Origin: Pyrinomonadaceae bacterium
Lineage (GTDB): Bacteria; Acidobacteriota; Blastocatellia; Pyrinomonadales; Pyrinomonadaceae
Reading direction: 5' to 3'
Length of the DNA stretch: 64,000 nt
NCBI GenBank assembly: GCA_014380365.1
Contig: JACMJZ010000004.1
Location: forward strand, 124,001-188,000
In this document: piece by piece, positions 2,623 to 8,864 of the stretch
How the letters are laid out: each line of letters opens with the position of its first letter
Numbering within the stretch: position 1 is the first letter of the stretch
The notes under the pieces: generated by a model
Seen by the model: only the letters and a program-made list of their open reading frames with translations
The model's database searches: none
Told to the model about the DNA's origin: nothing
Position numbers and translations under genes: made by a program

Positions 2623-2937
2623 ATGGCGACTAAATCGGCGACAGGCAAGAAGCGCATGACTCAGTCGGAGGTTTTCAACCACTTTGCTGAGGCGACAGGT
2701 ATGAAGCGCCTGCAGGTGAAGGAATTTTTCGACGAACTCTACAATCTCGCTTCGCGCGAGGTAACCACAAACGGAGAATTCGTGCTGCCGGGCTTCGGTA
2801 AGCTCGTCAAGTCCGAAAGAAAAGCCCGCGAGGGTCGAAACCCTGCGACTGGCGAAACAATCCAGATACCAGCGAAGACGACGTTGAAGTTTCGTGTCGG
2901 TAAAGGCATGAAAGATACAGTTTTACCCAAGAAATAA
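2623..2937 (+). CDS. HU/IHF-family DNA-binding protein
   Basis: 104-residue histone-like protein that bends and compacts DNA as a dimer. The family signature GRNPATGETIQIPAKT occupies residues 71-86, with the DNA-wrapping arm around it, preceded by LPGFGKL (55-61). The N-terminus carries about 10 extra Lys/Thr/Ser-rich residues compared with the usual 90-residue HU. A GGAGG lies about 15 bp upstream of the ATG, rather far. The gene is monocistronic: it is followed by a strong hairpin and then by the left end of the putative transposon. Confidence 0.95.
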   Translation: MATKSATGKKRMTQSEVFNHFAEATGMKRLQVKEFFDELYNLASREVTTNGEFVLPGFGKLVKSERKAREGRNPATGETIQIPAKTTLKFRVGKGMKDTVLPKK

Positions 2938-3092: not shown

Positions 3093-3103
3093 CGGTAAAA
3101 AGG
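3093..3103 (+). repeat. Left direct repeat (candidate target-site duplication)
   Basis: CGGTAAAAAGG, identical to 7938-7948. It sits immediately outside the left terminal inverted repeat. Confidence 0.65.
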
Positions 3104-3105
3104 AG

Positions 3106-3125
3106 AATGATGCACTTGACACACC
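3106..3125 (+). repeat. Left terminal inverted repeat
   Basis: Twenty bases matching the reverse complement of 7917-7936 at 19 positions; the inner 16 are identical. It contains a consensus -35 hexamer (TTGACA). Confidence 0.7.
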
Positions 3126-3255
3126 CTGACACAAAAACACTGGTATTTTAGTGTATCGGGGCCAACTGCGATCTAGCTGTGTCTGAGCTGAGATTTCGAT
3201 TATAAGCGGAGACAAGTGGGCGGGTGCTGAATGTATTCGCCCAACCTTGCGAACA

Positions 3256-3294
3256 GGCGTTGACGGGGTGAGTACGTTGACGCCCTTTTTCTTT
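3256..3294 (+). terminator. Inward-reading terminator at left end of the element
   Basis: GGCGTTGACG and CGTTGACGCC pair fully with two G-U pairs around a 9-nt loop, followed by CTTTTTCTTT. It functions only for transcripts entering from the left. It could shield the transposon from outside transcription; this role is inference. Confidence 0.5.
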
Positions 3295-4739
3295 CAGGCG
3301 AGCTTGGCAGCTAGTTCTTCGTCAAGAATGTCGCGCACTGTCAGAGGGATAATCACACGGCCTTCACGCCGAAAGAAGGCATCAATTTCGGTTAAGGCGT
3401 CACGACTAAAAGCGAAGGACACGAAGAAGCCCTTGCTTCGGTTTTCGCGCATCATTACTGCTTCAAAAGAGTCTATGTCTGGCCTTCCGGCTTTGTCCTT
3501 TTGCTTTACCTGGATCGGATACCACACATCCATAAACCCTAAGTGGTCTGCTTTTGTCGTTGGCGTGGAGTGGGCAGGATAGATGCGCCCATCAATGCCC
3601 ATGTCGCCCACTTGAACTTTGTTCTTGATGCCACCTAGCGCGATAACGGCCCAGTTCTCAAACTCAAACGGCGGAATCTTTCGCAGTTGATCTTCTGAGC
3701 GCGGGAGATCGCGCACTACGAAATCCTTGCCTTCGACTAGCTTGCAATCTTTGACAAGGCGCTTGGCTACCACACGACAAGCTGTTGGCGAGATGTCTAT
3801 TCCGATCCATTTTCGTTTTAGATTTTGGGCTGAAACGATAGCAGTTCCACATCCGCAAAAAGCATCTAGGACAATATCGCCGGGATTGCTACTTGCTTGA
3901 ATGATGCGGTCGAGTAGCGCAAGAGGTTTCTGAGTCGGATAGCCTAAAGCCTCTTTCGGTGTTTTAGAGAAGCTTGTGAGGGCGGGAATATCATCCCATA
4001 TTGAATCTATCGGCTGACCTTTCAATTCGTTTTCGTATCTCTTCCAGCCGGGCGTTCCTCCCTTCGGTGGAAAATGTATCCTGCCATCGGCGGCCATTTC
4101 CTCCAGTTCGTCGGGAGTGCGCATCCAATGACGGCCCTTGCCTATTTTCGCAGGATCGATTCCACGCCAAATCTTCCCAGTTTCACCGTTCCGCAATCCA
4201 GACCCGGTTATATCGTTAACGCGATATTTTCCACGCGTGGCAACGTGTTCATCGGAGAAAACGAAATAGTTCCTAATGTAGTCTTCTGAGTAGGGTTTTA
4301 GTTGAACATTGAACGTGGGAGCTTTGCCGTTTGAATATCGGAATACAATGTCATGAACATGGCCGAACCCATGAGTATCAGCGTGCGCTGTAGTGCGCTT
4401 CCAAACGATCTCGTTTTGAAAACTATTTTCTCCAAAAATCTGATCAAGCATCACCTTTACATAGTGTGAGGCGTGCCAGTCACAGTGATAGTAGAAGCTA
4501 CCTGTCGGCTTGAGTACCCGCGCTAGTTCGACGCAACGCGGGCGCATGAAGTCTATGTATGCGGCTGTGGAGGCGTGACGATCCTCAAAGGCGCGTTTCT
4601 CCTTGCCTTCTCCCCAAAAAACTTCGTAATTACGATTGGAGTTAAACGGTGGGTCTATGTAAACCAGATCAACGCACGCATCCGGCAACTTTGGAAGTTG
4701 CTGTAGGCAGTCACCGCAGTAGATGATCTGGGTGTCCAT
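3294..4739 (-). CDS. DNA amino-methyltransferase fused to a PD-(D/E)XK (Mrr-like) nuclease domain
   Basis: 481 residues. The N-terminal part is a beta-class DNA methyltransferase for N6-adenine or N4-cytosine: catalytic DPPF (29-32) comes first, a target-recognition stretch lies in the middle (about 110-260), and the SAM-binding FCGCGT (294-299) comes near the end of the domain. Residues about 355-481 form a second domain with the core of the PD-(D/E)XK fold: E361, D383 in GIDGRI, and Q410-V-K412 in IQVKQ, resembling the Mrr catalytic domain. One polypeptide could thus both modify and cut DNA, or the nuclease could be methyl-directed. It starts 6 bp after the stop of the small upstream gene, so the two are co-transcribed. 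It is probably passenger cargo of the surrounding transposon. The recognition sequence cannot be read from this. Confidence 0.85.
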   Translation of the reverse strand: MDTQIIYCGDCLQQLPKLPDACVDLVYIDPPFNSNRNYEVFWGEGKEKRAFEDRHASTAAYIDFMRPRCVELARVLKPTGSFYYHCDWHASHYVKVMLDQIFGENSFQNEIVWKRTTAHADTHGFGHVHDIVFRYSNGKAPTFNVQLKPYSEDYIRNYFVFSDEHVATRGKYRVNDITGSGLRNGETGKIWRGIDPAKIGKGRHWMRTPDELEEMAADGRIHFPPKGGTPGWKRYENELKGQPIDSIWDDIPALTSFSKTPKEALGYPTQKPLALLDRIIQASSNPGDIVLDAFCGCGTAIVSAQNLKRKWIGIDISPTACRVVAKRLVKDCKLVEGKDFVVRDLPRSEDQLRKIPPFEFENWAVIALGGIKNKVQVGDMGIDGRIYPAHSTPTTKADHLGFMDVWYPIQVKQKDKAGRPDIDSFEAVMMRENRSKGFFVSFAFSRDALTEIDAFFRREGRVIIPLTVRDILDEELAAKLA

Positions 4740-4745
4740 GTTGGG

Positions 4746-4916
4746 CTACGCAGCCTTGTGTTTCTTAGTGGCTTTCTTTTTCCCGGACTTCCCCTTGTCG
4801 GGCTTAGGCTCCGGTGGGGCGGAGAGAATCTTTCGTAGCGCATCCTCGAATGAATGCGGGGCAAGCGTAAAAGGCTTGCCTTTGTTTCCTGTAGGGTTAG
4901 GTGTCTCTCTTTTCAT
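4746..4916 (-). CDS. Small Lys-rich protein upstream of the methyltransferase fusion
   Basis: 56 residues from the ATG at 4916 (MKRETPNPTGNKGKPF); an upstream in-frame ATG at 4952 would add 12 less convincing residues. It has a central amphipathic stretch (FEDALRKILSAPP) and a Lys-rich tail. Small proteins of this general form are often found with mobile DNA, but I cannot assign a function. It ends 6 bp before the methyltransferase ATG, so they form a two-gene operon. It could be a regulatory or stabilising partner of the fusion enzyme. Confidence 0.6.
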   Translation of the reverse strand: MKRETPNPTGNKGKPFTLAPHSFEDALRKILSAPPEPKPDKGKSGKKKATKKHKAA

Positions 4917-4960
4917 TCCCTGCATTCTAGCATTGATGTAAAATCCTCTCATCTTAATTT

Positions 4961-5043
4961 CGGCTCGCCTCGACTCTTAGTTTGTCCGGCCAGATAGACC
5001 TAGAGGAAAAGACGCGACTTTCCTGAACGCATCCGGCGAGCCG
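4961..5043. promoter_or_regulatory. Symmetric inverted repeat between divergent cargo genes
   Basis: CGGCTCGCC (4961-4969) and its exact complement GGCGAGCCG (5035-5043) sit on either side of the middle of the 165-bp gap between the divergent starts at 4916 and 5082. The repeat centre (5002) nearly coincides with the gap centre (4999). The arrangement fits paired operator half-sites or a looped regulator controlling both directions. Confidence 0.4.
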
Positions 5044-5081
5044 ATTACTCATTCAGGTAAACGGCTAACAGGAAAGCCATT

Positions 5082-5954
5082 ATGCTCACCGATGCAGAGG
5101 TTGACGTTCTCGCCAAGGAACTCCTTAACGAAACCATTGATCAAGTTCTCAGTTGGAACGCGGACTACTTCTATGAGGTTTACGAAACCCATGAGGGCGA
5201 ATCAGTGCCAGTCTATGGCGCGACAAGCGCGGAGGGCTATGGAAGTTTCCTCTGTGAATTCATGCCCCTAGCCACCGTTAAGAAGATTATTCGAGAGTCC
5301 GAACGAATTTTCGATGAATGTCCGGTCATCGGAATAAACGAGTCGGGTGAAGTGGGAAGAAAGCCAGTCAGCGAACTCTTAGGCAAGAACCGCGAGAGTA
5401 CTGTGAGATGGATGTCGCTGCTAGCAACCTTGAATTTAATTGCATTTTTCCGGCAAGGACTCAGTGACATGATTGTAGAATCTGTTGAGGATTGTAAGAT
5501 CATTGCAAACGCTGCGCTTGCCGCCGCGATGTCTGAAGCTTTCGCAAAGGCGAATCCTGAGATTCCTGTTAAGGCAGACGCGAGACAAGACATTGAGGAC
5601 GCGGCAAAACGAGTGGCGGACAAGAAGCGGGACTTCTTGCGTGACCACATAAAGAAGTTACCGCATGTATTGACGCCACGCGGGCGCGGACGGCCAGTTG
5701 GAAGCACTAAACCCGCAGAGAAACGAACTCAAGAATCAGCAGAGTTTGAGGCAAGAGTCGAACAGACGATAAGAAAACTTCTCTTGGATACCGGGAAAAT
5801 GCCCATCAAAACAGCCGTAGCAAAAGAGATGGGCGTCGGTGGCTGGAATCGAGATAGCGGAACTGACAATAGGCTTATCTCATTCAGCGCCAAATTGAAT
5901 AGGCTCGGATTAAACTTTGACGCCATATCGGAGCGAGTGCGACTAAACAAATAA
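5082..5954 (+). CDS. Uncharacterised protein with AT-hook-like motif, transposon cargo
   Basis: 290 residues, not recognised. Visible features: an acidic helical N-terminal half, a hydrophobic helix around 118-130, an AT-hook-like basic patch RGRGRPVGSTK near 207-217, and a C-terminal region (about 225-290) that looks helical and could be a DNA-binding fold. An AGGAAA lies 8 bp before the ATG. It is transcribed away from the methyltransferase operon across a shared regulatory region and is followed by a very strong terminator. The position suggests a regulator or specificity/accessory factor of the modification-nuclease enzyme, or a transposition accessory protein; this is inference. There is no transmembrane or signal sequence. 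Confidence 0.75.
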   Translation: MLTDAEVDVLAKELLNETIDQVLSWNADYFYEVYETHEGESVPVYGATSAEGYGSFLCEFMPLATVKKIIRESERIFDECPVIGINESGEVGRKPVSELLGKNRESTVRWMSLLATLNLIAFFRQGLSDMIVESVEDCKIIANAALAAAMSEAFAKANPEIPVKADARQDIEDAAKRVADKKRDFLRDHIKKLPHVLTPRGRGRPVGSTKPAEKRTQESAEFEARVEQTIRKLLLDTGKMPIKTAVAKEMGVGGWNRDSGTDNRLISFSAKLNRLGLNFDAISERVRLNK

Positions 5955-6077
5955 ATGCGCGGGTAATTTTTCTGTTTATATATGGGAAAATTAATCGACA
6001 ATTTTTCCGTTCACAAACGAAGATATTCAACCGGAATTTCTAAGTTTAACTGACACATTTCTCGCAGGGTTAATATG

Positions 6078-6108
6078 CCGTTATCAGCGAAAGCTGGTAA
6101 CGGTTTTT
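6078..6108 (+). terminator. Rho-independent terminator
   Basis: CCGTTA-T-CAGC-GAAA-GCTG-G-TAACGG followed by TTTTT: a 10-bp stem with a stable GAAA tetraloop. It ends transcription of the AT-hook gene that stops at 5954. Confidence 0.9.
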
Positions 6109-6128
6109 GATTAGGAGGGACAAGTGGA

Positions 6129-6179
6129 ATGGTAAGACGGAAAAGCACTGCTAAGAATGCCGAACTTAGTGGGGCGTAA
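6129..6179 (+). CDS. Possible 16-residue leader peptide
   Basis: An almost perfect ribosome site (AGGAGG, 6113-6118) lies 10 bp before an ATG opening a 16-codon frame (MVRRKSTAKNAELSGA) that closes at 6179. It lies between a strong terminator and a 9-bp hairpin, and a tRNA-like sequence follows. The ribosome site is the only argument; it could be a chance match or a leader peptide. Confidence 0.3.
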   Translation: MVRRKSTAKNAELSGA

Positions 6180-6189
6180 AAACAGAAAA

Positions 6190-6226
6190 CCTCAGAGGGC
6201 AAATCGTTGACGCGAATCCTCTGAGG
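6190..6226 (+). other. 9-bp inverted repeat
   Basis: CCTCAGAGG and CCTCTGAGG are separated by 19 nt, between the short leader frame and the tRNA-like gene. There is no T-tract, so it is not an obvious terminator. It might be a processing hairpin or attenuator element. Confidence 0.4.
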
Positions 6227-6249
6227 CAAGGCGAATTGATTTCAAGACC

Positions 6250-6333
6250 GGGGACGTGGCGAAACTGGTAGCCGCATTTGCTCGGGAAGCTTACGGTCGA
6301 AAGATCATGCGGGTTCGAATCCCGTCGTCCCCA
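6250..6333 (+). tRNA. tRNA-Leu-like gene with aberrant anticodon arm (inside transposon)
   Basis: The cloverleaf parts are clear: acceptor GGGGACG/CGTCCCC (7 bp), A73, a 3-bp D stem (GCG/CGC) with ACTGGTAG in the loop, T arm GCGGG-TTCGAAT-CCCGT, and a long variable arm GGTC-GAAA-GATC. This is the class II (Leu-type) layout. The anticodon stem does not form: TTTGC faces GCTTA with two internal mismatches, and the loop TCGGGAA lacks the universal U33. No CCA is encoded. It may be a degenerate tRNA, a specialised tRNA-like RNA carried by the element, or a remnant attachment site. Ordinary decoding function looks unlikely. Confidence 0.55.
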
Positions 6334-6342
6334 TACCACATT

Positions 6343-6588
6343 CTAGGGAAGGTCTAGCTTATCGTCAATCAAAACGTCGGTTGAAATCCCTGCCAGCCGC
6401 GCGTACCTCAAAAGCACAGGCAATGGTGGCTCGCGTTCGCTTCTCTCATAGGCTGAGATATGCGCCGGATGAATTGTGGGAAACTTGAGGCGTTCGCACA
6501 TAACGGCCTGAGAGATTTCCAAGCCTTCGCGGATCAATCGAAGCTTCAAGCCGAGACGCTTAGGACGCGGGCGGGGTGACCTTCCCAT
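6343..6588 (-). CDS. XRE-family helix-turn-helix regulator
   Basis: 81 residues from the ATG at 6588 (MGRSPRPRPKRLG), with GGAAGG upstream; an ATG at 6618 would add ten residues. A Cro/C1-type helix-turn-helix covers most of the protein (KLRLIREGLEISQAVMCERL, then HPAHISAYERSEREPPL). Such single-domain proteins repress promoters of mobile elements and restriction-modification systems, and a controller role here is plausible. A perfect 14-bp palindrome sits 50 bp upstream of the start. It is oriented like the transposase and the methyltransferase operon. Confidence 0.88.
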   Translation of the reverse strand: MGRSPRPRPKRLGLKLRLIREGLEISQAVMCERLKFPTIHPAHISAYERSEREPPLPVLLRYARLAGISTDVLIDDKLDLP

Positions 6589-6636
6589 CAAGTGCGCCCT
6601 TCCTGCCGGAGAACGCATCTTTGATCTTTACTTCCC

Positions 6637-6650
6637 CGCCTATATAGGCG
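6637..6650. promoter_or_regulatory. 14-bp palindrome, likely XRE operator
   Basis: CGCCTATATAGGCG is a perfect palindrome in the presumed promoter of the XRE gene, with an AT-rich TATATA core. Its size and position fit an autoregulatory operator for the dimeric XRE protein. Confidence 0.5.
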
Positions 6651-6877
6651 TATTGTGTGCTCGTCATTTGGGAGTGCCCGGAAGCCTTGCATCCGGGCCG
6701 GGAGCACTACCTGGTATTACCTCGCGTCATAGTGAACATCACGATCTTTTTGCAAGCTTAACACAGGTGAGCGCGGGCTCCCGATGGCAACGAGGGTGGG
6801 TTCGTTGCCAAACGCCTGCGCTCCCTTAGGGGGTGGCGGTTGCTGGGGTGAGGACAATGACCGCCACTCTCCGCGAT

Positions 6878-7891
6878 TTACTCTTTCCCGGTAGGCATCT
6901 TGTAGGTGAGGCGTTTGCCTTCGATTCCCTTGAGTGCGGTTTCAGCCCGTTCGCCGTCCGTAACTTTGCGCTCATTGTATCTGAAATCAAACTCGCTTAG
7001 ATAGCGATGCAGGTGCTTTCTGCCTACGTGATGATAGACACCATTGATACCGCGCTTGAGAAGTGAAAAGTAGCCCTCGACCGTGTTAGTTGTGACCATC
7101 ACGCCTTCATCGTAGCGCACATATTCATCAGCCTTATGGTTCACGAGCGAATGCTTGCGTCCGGTCTTTTTACCCCAGAGAACGCCCGTATCGCTCATCA
7201 GGTGGGCATCCTGAGAGACTACATCATTCAGGACGATCTTGAGATTGTCGGCTGTCACGCGCTCAAGGTGCCGCGAATGAACCCGCCCGCCGCGCTGCAT
7301 CACTGAGAACACAGCTTGCTTATCTACAAACGGCCCTAGCATGTCTTGCGCTCGCTGTCCCGGCTTGGGCGCATGGGTTTGTTTCCGGCGTCGCCGTCCA
7401 CCAATGTAGGTCTCATCGACTTCGACTATTCCATTCATCTTTTCCGGCAACTCGCCAGTCATTGCATAGCGGATTCTGTGCGCCATAAACCACGCTGACT
7501 TGTACTGTCCAATATCAAGCATCCGCATCAACTGATGGGCACTCATTCCCTTCTTGGATGAGCAGAGCAGATGGATCGCCAATAGCCATTTGTGGAGTGG
7601 GATGTGCGAATCCTCGAATATGGTCTTGACCGTAACCGTGAACTGCTTCTTGCATCCAGCGCACTTCCAGAGTCCCTTGCGCGGCTTGCGGATACGCTTC
7701 CGAGTGGCTTTGATTTCCTCGAATGTTTTGGGCTTAGGCGTAATCTTGTACGCTTCGCCTACCAGCCCACAATGCGGACAGACTGCACCGTCCGGCCAGC
7801 GCATCGCTTCAAGGTATTCGCGGGCCGCATCTTCATCTCGGAAGTGTGTCGCTAACAGTGATTCAGGCTTGGTTCGGGATACTTTTTCCAT
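6878..7891 (-). CDS. IS1595-family (ISXO2-like) transposase
   Basis: 337 residues, full length. The N-terminal zinc ribbon is present (CPHC 38-41, CAGC 77-80). The ISXO2-like catalytic domain follows: VDETYIGG with D159, SDTG with D234, and NTVEGYFSLLKRGI with N269 and K279, the D-D-N-K set of this family, then HRYLSEFDFRYNER near the C-terminus. No frameshift or stop, so it is probably active. Its start lies about 26 bp inside the right terminal inverted repeat, whose TTGACA may serve as the -35 of its promoter. It would mobilise the whole 3.1-7.9 kb unit if the proposed ends are right. Confidence 0.95.
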   Translation of the reverse strand: MEKVSRTKPESLLATHFRDEDAAREYLEAMRWPDGAVCPHCGLVGEAYKITPKPKTFEEIKATRKRIRKPRKGLWKCAGCKKQFTVTVKTIFEDSHIPLHKWLLAIHLLCSSKKGMSAHQLMRMLDIGQYKSAWFMAHRIRYAMTGELPEKMNGIVEVDETYIGGRRRRKQTHAPKPGQRAQDMLGPFVDKQAVFSVMQRGGRVHSRHLERVTADNLKIVLNDVVSQDAHLMSDTGVLWGKKTGRKHSLVNHKADEYVRYDEGVMVTTNTVEGYFSLLKRGINGVYHHVGRKHLHRYLSEFDFRYNERKVTDGERAETALKGIEGKRLTYKMPTGKE

Positions 7892-7916
7892 ACCCCAAGT
7901 GTCTCATATCTGATTA

Positions 7917-7936
7917 GGTGTGTCAAGTGCATAATT
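7917..7936 (-). repeat. Right terminal inverted repeat
   Basis: Reverse complement matches 3106-3125 at 19 of 20 positions. It sits between the transposase start and the right direct repeat. Confidence 0.7.
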
Positions 7937-7937
7937 G

Positions 7938-7948
7938 CGGTAAAAAGG
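7938..7948 (+). repeat. Right direct repeat (candidate target-site duplication)
   Basis: CGGTAAAAAGG, identical to 3093-3103. It lies one base outside the right terminal inverted repeat. Confidence 0.65.
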
Positions 7949-8144
7949 CTGGTAATTTTCGGCACACTCAGGTAGAATCTCATGTTTTGCTGACCCCCTA
8001 AATTTAGGACTTTCGGAACAGTGCAGCCCTCGACGGGAATTGTTCCTAAATGCAATGGATCTGCATCCTCGGCATCGGCTGAGGCATCTAAGATTCGCAA
8101 CTAAAATGGCCGCATCGGGCTTTTTGGAGGAGAAAAGAGTAATC

Positions 8145-8396
8145 GTGACTTTCAATAGACATTTACCGCTGGACGAGCGGATTCTGAGAATTGACCATAT
8201 TCAGGCGAGGCGTTATTCGAAGTTGGGCGGAGTGGCGCTTGAGATTGCCACAGAGGGCATTGTCCGCCACTTGCGCGCTTGTGATCGAATGGATGTGAAC
8301 CCAGACACTTCAGCCGTGAGAGAGATCATCGATGACGCTGTAAACGGTCGCCGAGTCTTCGCTGAGGGTACTGAGCAGCAGACTCAGGCAGCTTAG
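8145..8396 (+). CDS. Small hypothetical protein
   Basis: 83 residues from a GTG at 8145, with GGAGGAGA about 13 bp upstream. The frame stays open 35 codons further upstream to an ATG at 8040, but that stretch is His/Arg-rich, lacks a ribosome site and begins just outside the transposon. Not recognised. The sequence has a short basic beta-like N-terminus and an amphipathic helical middle (ALEIATEGIVRHLRA). A textbook terminator follows 23 bp after the stop, which supports a real transcription unit. Confidence 0.55.
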   Translation: MTFNRHLPLDERILRIDHIQARRYSKLGGVALEIATEGIVRHLRACDRMDVNPDTSAVREIIDDAVNGRRVFAEGTEQQTQAA

Positions 8397-8521: not shown

Positions 8522-8864
8522 GTCCCTGTAGCTCAGTGGATAGAGCATCTGCCTTGTTGGAGCCTTAATGGGGAAAAGTTAAGAAGAACTCATTAAGTGG
8601 ACGGCCCCATATGCGGGAACGCCCTTAGAGCCTCTGGTACTCGAAGGTCATTTGAGTAAAAATCCAGTAGGATTGGGTAATCCGCAGGAAACCTTTCTCA
8701 TGTGAATTATGCGCGAGGAGGGGCTCCTCAGAGACTATACGGGTCGGGACTGTGATGTCCAAGATATAGTCCAGCCAGCAACCCTGTCATCGGACGGGCG
8801 GTCAGGGAAAGCCTGATGCTGGATGCTAAGCAGAGGGCCGCAGGTTCGAGCCCTGCCAGGGACA
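8522..8864 (+). tRNA. tRNA-Arg(UCU), interrupted by a group I intron
   Basis: The exons are 8522-8555 and 8826-8864. Joined, they give a complete cloverleaf: acceptor GTCCCTG/CAGGGAC, D stem GCTC/GAGC, anticodon stem TCTGC/GCAGA, T arm GCAGG-TTCGAGC-CCTGC and A73; no CCA is encoded. The anticodon loop becomes CTTCTAA, so the anticodon is UCU, reading AGA/AGG. The insertion falls after position 34, leaving a U at the 5' splice site and a G as last intron base, as group I introns require. The same anticodon-loop location is used by known bacterial tRNA group I introns. Confidence 0.88.
8556..8825 (+). ncRNA. Group I intron (270 nt, no ORF)
   Basis: Conserved core elements are visible in order: P-like TGCGGGAA (8612-8619), Q-like AATCCGCAGG (P4 pairing TGCGG/CCGCA), R-like CAGAGACTATACGGG and S-like AAGATATAGTCC. 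P7 forms from GACTATA (8733-8739) and TATAGTC (8765-8771), with a P8 hairpin GGGAC/TGTCC between them. It ends in G (omega-G). It encodes no homing endonuclease, so it is probably an immobile self-splicing intron needed for tRNA-Arg maturation. Confidence 0.9.

Follow-up and report, generated by a model that had tools for sequence, protein, structure and literature searches.

An IS1595 transposon carrying a methyltransferase-nuclease fusion and a tRNA-like gene, and its likely recurrent insertion site beside an HU gene in an acidobacterial family

Introduction

How does the gene of a restriction-modification-like enzyme come to lie beside an IS1595-type transposase, between two conserved genes of an acidobacterial chromosome, and do the two move together? 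The question is raised by a 4.8-kb segment (positions ~3103-7938) situated between the gene of an HU-type DNA-binding protein and a conserved gene, here called X, in a 64,000-nucleotide stretch of DNA from a Pyrinomonadaceae bacterium. This whole stretch (G000:C9:124001-188000, within the 4.98-Mb genome G000) is referred to below as the window. IS1595 elements are usually regarded as simple insertion sequences, and passenger genes are reportedly on record in the 2009 definition of the family. With a probability of roughly 0.8, we read the segment as a passenger-carrying IS1595 transposon that has repeatedly inserted at a safe harbour between HU and X with a swappable cargo of self-maintenance or defence type. 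The ends, the target duplication, the intact transposase and the empty site were observed directly, as were related elements, mostly with different passengers, inserted at the same site. The original prediction, made from the letters of the window, had proposed such a transposon; the fixed insertion site and the oddity of its tRNA-like gene go beyond it, neither having been noticed there.

Results

Boundaries of the element and its transposase

The features that delimit the element and encode its transposase are:

3095 to 3102, unstranded: left target-site duplication GTAAAAAG, an exact repeat of 7939-7946 inside the 11-bp match 3093-3103
3103 to 3125, plus strand: left terminal inverted repeat GAGAATGATGCACTTGACACACC, pairing with 7917-7938
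6878 to 7891, minus strand: IS1595-family (ISXO2-like) transposase of 337 amino acids (aa); DDE_Tnp_IS1595 7.4e-32, Zn_ribbon_IS1595 2.2e-14, NF033547 183 bits (cut-off 75)
7917 to 7938, minus strand: right terminal inverted repeat, including TTGACA
7939 to 7946, unstranded: right target-site duplication GTAAAAAG, itself an A-tract; the -10 box of gene X (TAGAAT, 7972-7977) lies 25 nt downstream

The inward-facing 20-bp inverted repeat of the original prediction was recovered at 3106-3125 and 7917-7936 with 19/20 matches, as the best-scoring pair of the region. The predicted 11-bp flanking direct repeat is likewise real, CGGTAAAAAGG being found exactly at both 3093-3103 and 7938-7948, but it is longer than the true target duplication. 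Judged against related elements, the ends are GAGAATGATGC..., starting at 3103, and ...GCATAATTGCG, finishing at 7938, and the duplication is the 8-mer GTAAAAAG; an 11-bp target duplication was therefore rejected, and the remaining three bases read as chance matches between flank and element end. The transposase predicted at the right end is an intact open reading frame (ORF) in which the DDE_Tnp_IS1595 domain and the IS1595 zinc ribbon are matched along their full length. Catalytic domain, zinc ribbon, terminal inverted repeats and 8-bp duplication, a length also found in relatives, are thus all present as in the IS1595 family. The TTGACA in the right terminal repeat is likely the -35 element of the transposase promoter. 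Between the ends lie five other features, as foreseen: a methyltransferase-Mrr fusion, a 68-aa ORF, a 290-aa ORF, a tRNA-like gene and a helix-turn-helix (HTH) protein. The whole element is present in G000 as a single copy, and we take it for a complete IS1595 transposon with passenger genes. The empty site in relatives speaks for its mobility, and it may still be active today.

Empty and occupied sites between HU and X

The host genes flanking the element are:

2623 to 2937, plus strand: left flanking gene, HU-type DNA-binding protein (Bac_DNA_binding 4e-24), adjoining X in most genomes of the family
8145 to 8396, plus strand: right flanking gene X, a conserved small protein with a putative start codon, present in 108/119 family genomes

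HU and X are neighbours in most of the 119 family genomes, usually with a few hundred bp between them. The search for an empty site that the original prediction had called for was run, and in G004, a member of the same genus, the HU gene is joined directly to the right flank of the window, with no insert. Relatives were also inspected for cargo genes standing without the transposase, and were found to lack cargo and transposase alike. In unoccupied relatives, an A-tract followed by TCTGG or a similar sequence is often present at the corresponding spot.

IS1595 elements were also found between HU and X in G006 (same genus) and in G153 and G151 (another genus), with transposases 87%, 80% and 63% identical to that of the window. 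In all four genomes the transposase end faces X, and the distance from the end of the duplication to the -10 box of X is 25, 25, 24 and 25 nt in G000, G006, G153 and G151, respectively. The corresponding 8-bp duplications, GTAAAAAG, CGGAAAAA, GAGAAATA and AAAAAAAT, are perfect within each genome and differ between genomes, and the cargo of these same-site elements is mostly different. Because position and orientation are constant while duplications and most of the cargo differ, repeated insertion at a fixed site is likely, and the site would be recognized by the transposase itself.

The HU-X gap might instead be merely a tolerated AT-rich intergenic spot, where an element preferring A/T-rich 8-mers survives selection when its insertion is harmless. 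Related elements elsewhere likewise duplicate A/T-rich 8-mers, and the IS1595-family element ISApl4 makes A/T-rich 8-bp duplications at many sites, with a preference for intergenic places (PMC12561309). Selection for harmlessness would, however, permit very many other sites, while the observed distance to the -10 box varies by no more than 1 nt and the orientation is the same in 4/4 cases; we consider simple tolerance unlikely. Less probable still is a single ancient insertion passed on by descent, with many later losses and changes of cargo, in which case the position would reflect ancestry and not targeting: the perfect within-genome duplications differ between genomes (for a single diverged old insertion, 8/8 identity in three genomes has an estimated chance of ~4e-4 at 28% divergence), the terminal repeat of G151 is of a different subtype, and the G151 transposase is as distant from that of G153 (63% identity) as from those of other classes, although the two hosts share a genus and their HU genes are 86% identical. 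These features indicate at least two, and probably four, independent insertions at the one spot.

Several observations weigh against our reading of the element and its cargo. The nucleotide identity of the G006 and G153 transposases to that of the window (80% and 74%) parallels that of the host HU genes (81% and 72%), as vertical descent would have it, and the G006 and G153 elements have a DUF6941-like gene, the 68-aa gene and the gene order in common; part of the pattern in G000, G006 and G153 could thus be vertical descent with losses. The G153 transposase (L129 2932-3945) is split by an internal stop codon, so that this copy is probably dead, and the G006 element is divided over two contigs and was deduced from both ends. 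A broken relative lies elsewhere in G077. In other families the elements lie away from X and give no indication of general promoter targeting, and ~75 of the 80 loci with a methyltransferase-Mrr gene lie outside any recognizable transposon.

The fixed distance and orientation upstream of a promoter were seen at HU-X in the four genomes and not for elements elsewhere, and general promoter targeting by the whole subfamily is thus unsupported outside HU-X. The 2.8-kb HU-X gap of G109 was rejected as an occupied site, as it contains other genes and no recognized transposase. No description of a site-specific IS1595 element was found in the open-access literature, subscription papers lying outside the search. 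Two further IS1595 insertions, L141 and L206 (G239 and G662), lie in opposite orientations in copies of a dispersed repeat, AGATTTTGANNTCTAAGTTCTTTGA, with four and six near matches per genome, and a second fixed locus in this clade was rejected on that ground.

The tRNA-Leu-like gene

6250 to 6333, plus strand: tRNA-Leu-like class II tRNA gene with the proline anticodon GGG (ARAGORN, Rfam); C33, weak anticodon stem, no encoded CCA

The gene is 84 nt long, with a long variable arm, A73, 7/5 acceptor/T arms and two T-T mismatches in the anticodon stem. Comparable genes were found inside the IS1595 elements of G151 (AGG), G159 (GGG) and G664 (TGG), and a model built from six genes added those of the G719 and G556 elements, in which a 31-36 nt hairpin replaces the anticodon loop (L205, L212), so that at least five IS1595 elements besides that of the window carry one. 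The best other matches of this model in G000 are five ordinary Leu tRNAs, and the body is therefore regarded as Leu-like. Two further tRNA-like genes lie beside other transposases (L135, GGA; L014, CCC). In a tally of ~63 kb of 18 IS1595 elements, six tRNA-like genes were counted against 0.08 expected (P ~3e-10, or ~1e-6 with only the four found by general tools); several of these had gone into the model and the elements were not chosen blindly, which makes the P values a guide.

A competing account is that these are ordinary or decaying missense tRNAs picked up by chance, and we give it an appreciable though minority share of belief. It accords with the C33 and the mismatched anticodon stem of the window copy, and with the host Leu tRNAs being its nearest relatives in G000. 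The excess in the tally speaks against it, as does the conservation of the body across genes whose anticodon varies or gives way to a hairpin. U33 is present in the anticodon loop of other members; L205 and L212 have hairpins in the loop, and in the window copy position 33 is a C and the stem is weak. With a body that is conserved and an anticodon that varies or is lost, decoding is an unlikely function; the genes probably do not encode decoding tRNAs, and their RNA would have some other role.

Other unusual tRNA genes were observed nearby and elsewhere in the genome. At 8522-8864 of the window, a tRNA-Arg(TCT) carries a group I intron in its anticodon loop, recognized by ARAGORN in intron mode and scored by Rfam (Intron_gpI) at 39.3 bits, short of the gathering score of 50; the intron is also found in G006 (L110 3087-3323, 43.1 bits) and is absent from the same tRNA in G153 and G151. 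At G000:C5 ~275550-283000 (L236, L239, L240), 12 or more tRNA genes whose bodies are unusual, 78-nt Leu tRNAs among them, are crowded together in a way that resembles the tRNA arrays of phages or islands.

The methyltransferase-Mrr fusion

3294 to 4739, minus strand: methyltransferase-Mrr fusion of 481 aa, a beta-class N6-adenine-type DNA methyltransferase (DPPF, FCGCGT) with a C-terminal Mrr nuclease domain (D...QxK, with D379 and K412 at the nuclease site); Pfam N6_N4_Mtase 1.3e-47, Mrr_cat 22.9 bits (cut-off 21); type II methyltransferase in PADLOC

Methylase and nuclease are joined in one chain with intact catalytic motifs, as in Type IIG/IIC enzymes. Among 79 homologues, DPPF, FCGCGT, GDxGIDG and QVKQ show little or no variation, and the segment separating the methylase motifs is variable, which is the pattern of a recognition domain. 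The AlphaFold model is of moderate quality (pLDDT, the predicted local distance difference test score, 70), and its matches in the PDB are methylases, for example EcoP15I Mod, M.BceJIV and CcrM. Given its constant catalytic cores and the variable segment between the methylase motifs, the protein is best read as a one-gene restriction-modification (R-M) enzyme with putative restriction activity, and it may act as the addiction system that had been suggested.

Mrr domains are typical of type IV enzymes. The fusion could be modification-dependent (type IV-like) or regulatory; the Mrr_cat score barely over the cut-off would agree with this, as would the solitary position of most homologues, which lack a recurrent partner gene. 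We hold it to be unlikely, if well short of negligible, as invariant cores together with a variable region between the methylase motifs are what a recognition domain serving both activities would give.

The pairing of an R-M-like enzyme with an IS1595-type transposase, which the original prediction had called unusual, is real but not unique. Of the 80 homologous loci, the fusion lies within the ends of two other IS1595 elements (L038, L060) and of three IS1-like elements (L007, L015, L028), two of the latter with 8-bp duplications; it thus appears to be a recurrent passenger on at least two transposase families. That it is transposon cargo in all its genomes was rejected, as most homologues are without inverted repeats or target-site duplications (controls 6/398). 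In one case (L015 / L109 16-5211) an IS1-like transposon bounded by 37-bp ends makes up an entire 5.2-kb contig of G006; its cargo is the fusion, a tRNA-Gly(TCC) gene and a 237-aa protein. At L029, L050, L076, L083 and L085, a full-length gene is adjoined by an extra fragment of the same gene (mostly C-terminal; N-terminal in L083), which would fit the arrival of a second copy within or next to a resident gene.

Other protein cargo, here and in related elements

4746 to 4952, minus strand: 68-aa basic protein just upstream of the methyltransferase, with relatives in the elements of G006, G153 and G159; no known family found
5082 to 5954, plus strand: 290-aa protein with an AT-hook-like GRGRPVGST; no known family found, and a C-terminal relative in G034 lies by an HTH gene and a tRNA-like gene
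6343 to 6618, minus strand: 91-aa HTH (RstR/XRE-type) regulator, with relatives in other IS1595 elements

Relatives of the HTH gene were found in G151 and, within G000 itself, in another, distant IS1595 element (L137 5650-8889; G000:C34 ~311649-314888). The latter has a transposase of 35% identity and an 8-bp duplication CTAATTTG; its HTH gene is 59% identical to that of the window, it also contains a DUF3800-like gene, and a stretch of it is 76% identical to window 6677-6864. The cargo of related IS1595 elements includes HicA/HicB, PIN, DUF433-PIN, DUF1828 and DUF3800-like genes, the DUF3800 assignment having been made by eye; PADLOC found no known defence system in the cargo of the relatives. 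In G034, L135 3620-8450 (C26) brings together a DUF1828-like gene, an HTH gene, the relative of the 290-aa protein, the class II tRNA (GGA) and a different transposase-like ORF, and appears to be the same cargo set on another mover.

Discussion

Proposed mechanism and significance

In the mechanism that we propose, the transposase would act on the 20-bp ends and insert the element, in one orientation, into the A-tract just upstream of the -35 region of gene X, between HU and X, duplicating 8 bp. Because both neighbouring genes stay intact, the site would be a safe harbour, apparently used more than once by related elements. The cargo would be interchangeable and made up of genes for self-maintenance and of defence type. 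In this element it is a single polypeptide with methyltransferase, variable recognition region and Mrr nuclease, which may shield the host copy through methylation and cleave DNA that is unmodified, together with a repressor-like HTH protein and a tRNA-Leu-like RNA that is probably not decoding. A bolder form, which we put forward tentatively and hold to be doubtful, is that the lineage homes to a fixed, promoter-proximal safe harbour and carries, besides exchangeable R-M or toxin-antitoxin genes, a dedicated non-decoding RNA derived from tRNA-Leu that functions in the element or its cargo, possibly by binding leucyl-tRNA synthetase, by acting as an RNA antitoxin or in regulation. Judged from these sequences, this IS1595 lineage would act like a small homing carrier of exchangeable defence-type cargo, which includes a complete one-gene R-M candidate moving on at least two transposase families.

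Comparison with known systems

The element shares with ISXO2-like IS1595 elements bearing passenger genes the transposase domains, 20-30 bp ends, an A/T-rich 8-bp duplication and the passengers themselves, and differs in being a single copy, in its fixed site in four genomes and in having an R-M fusion and a tRNA-like gene as passengers. At HU-X, the fixed distance upstream of a promoter, the fixed orientation with the right end by the promoter and the undamaged genes recall TnGBS, ISLre2 and ISKra4, Mutator-type DDE elements whose insertions lie upstream of sigma-A promoters and share one orientation (PMC3942029); the transposase here is of the unrelated IS1595 family and not Mutator-like, and one locus is used, not promoters generally. 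As with Tn7 and attTn7, variable cargo occupies a neutral fixed chromosomal site beside a conserved gene, but there is one transposase gene, and the insertion lies upstream of X and not at the end of a gene; no domains of a Tn7-type target-selection protein or multi-protein transposase were recognized among the genes of the element. The fusion resembles the single-chain Type IIG/IIC R-M enzymes in combining methylase, recognition region and nuclease in one polypeptide, and differs in its length of only 481 aa, its C-terminal Mrr-type nuclease and its beta-class methylase, all of them known here from sequence.

The tRNA-like genes recall the acidobacterial allo-tRNAs, odd tRNAs with long variable arms that are suspected to belong to transposons or toxin-antitoxin systems, and one kind of which overlaps a transposon-related ORF and fails in translation in Escherichia coli (PMC7609411, reviewing Mukai 2017). 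Membership in that group was rejected, since the genes of the element have 7/5 arms, A73 and, as nearest host relatives, five Leu tRNAs, in contrast to the 8/4 or 9/3 arms and serine identity of allo-tRNAs, and two members have no anticodon at all. They nevertheless provide a concrete, bounded genetic context for odd acidobacterial tRNAs, in which the suspected link to transposons or toxin-antitoxin systems (PMC7609411) now becomes testable in a defined element.

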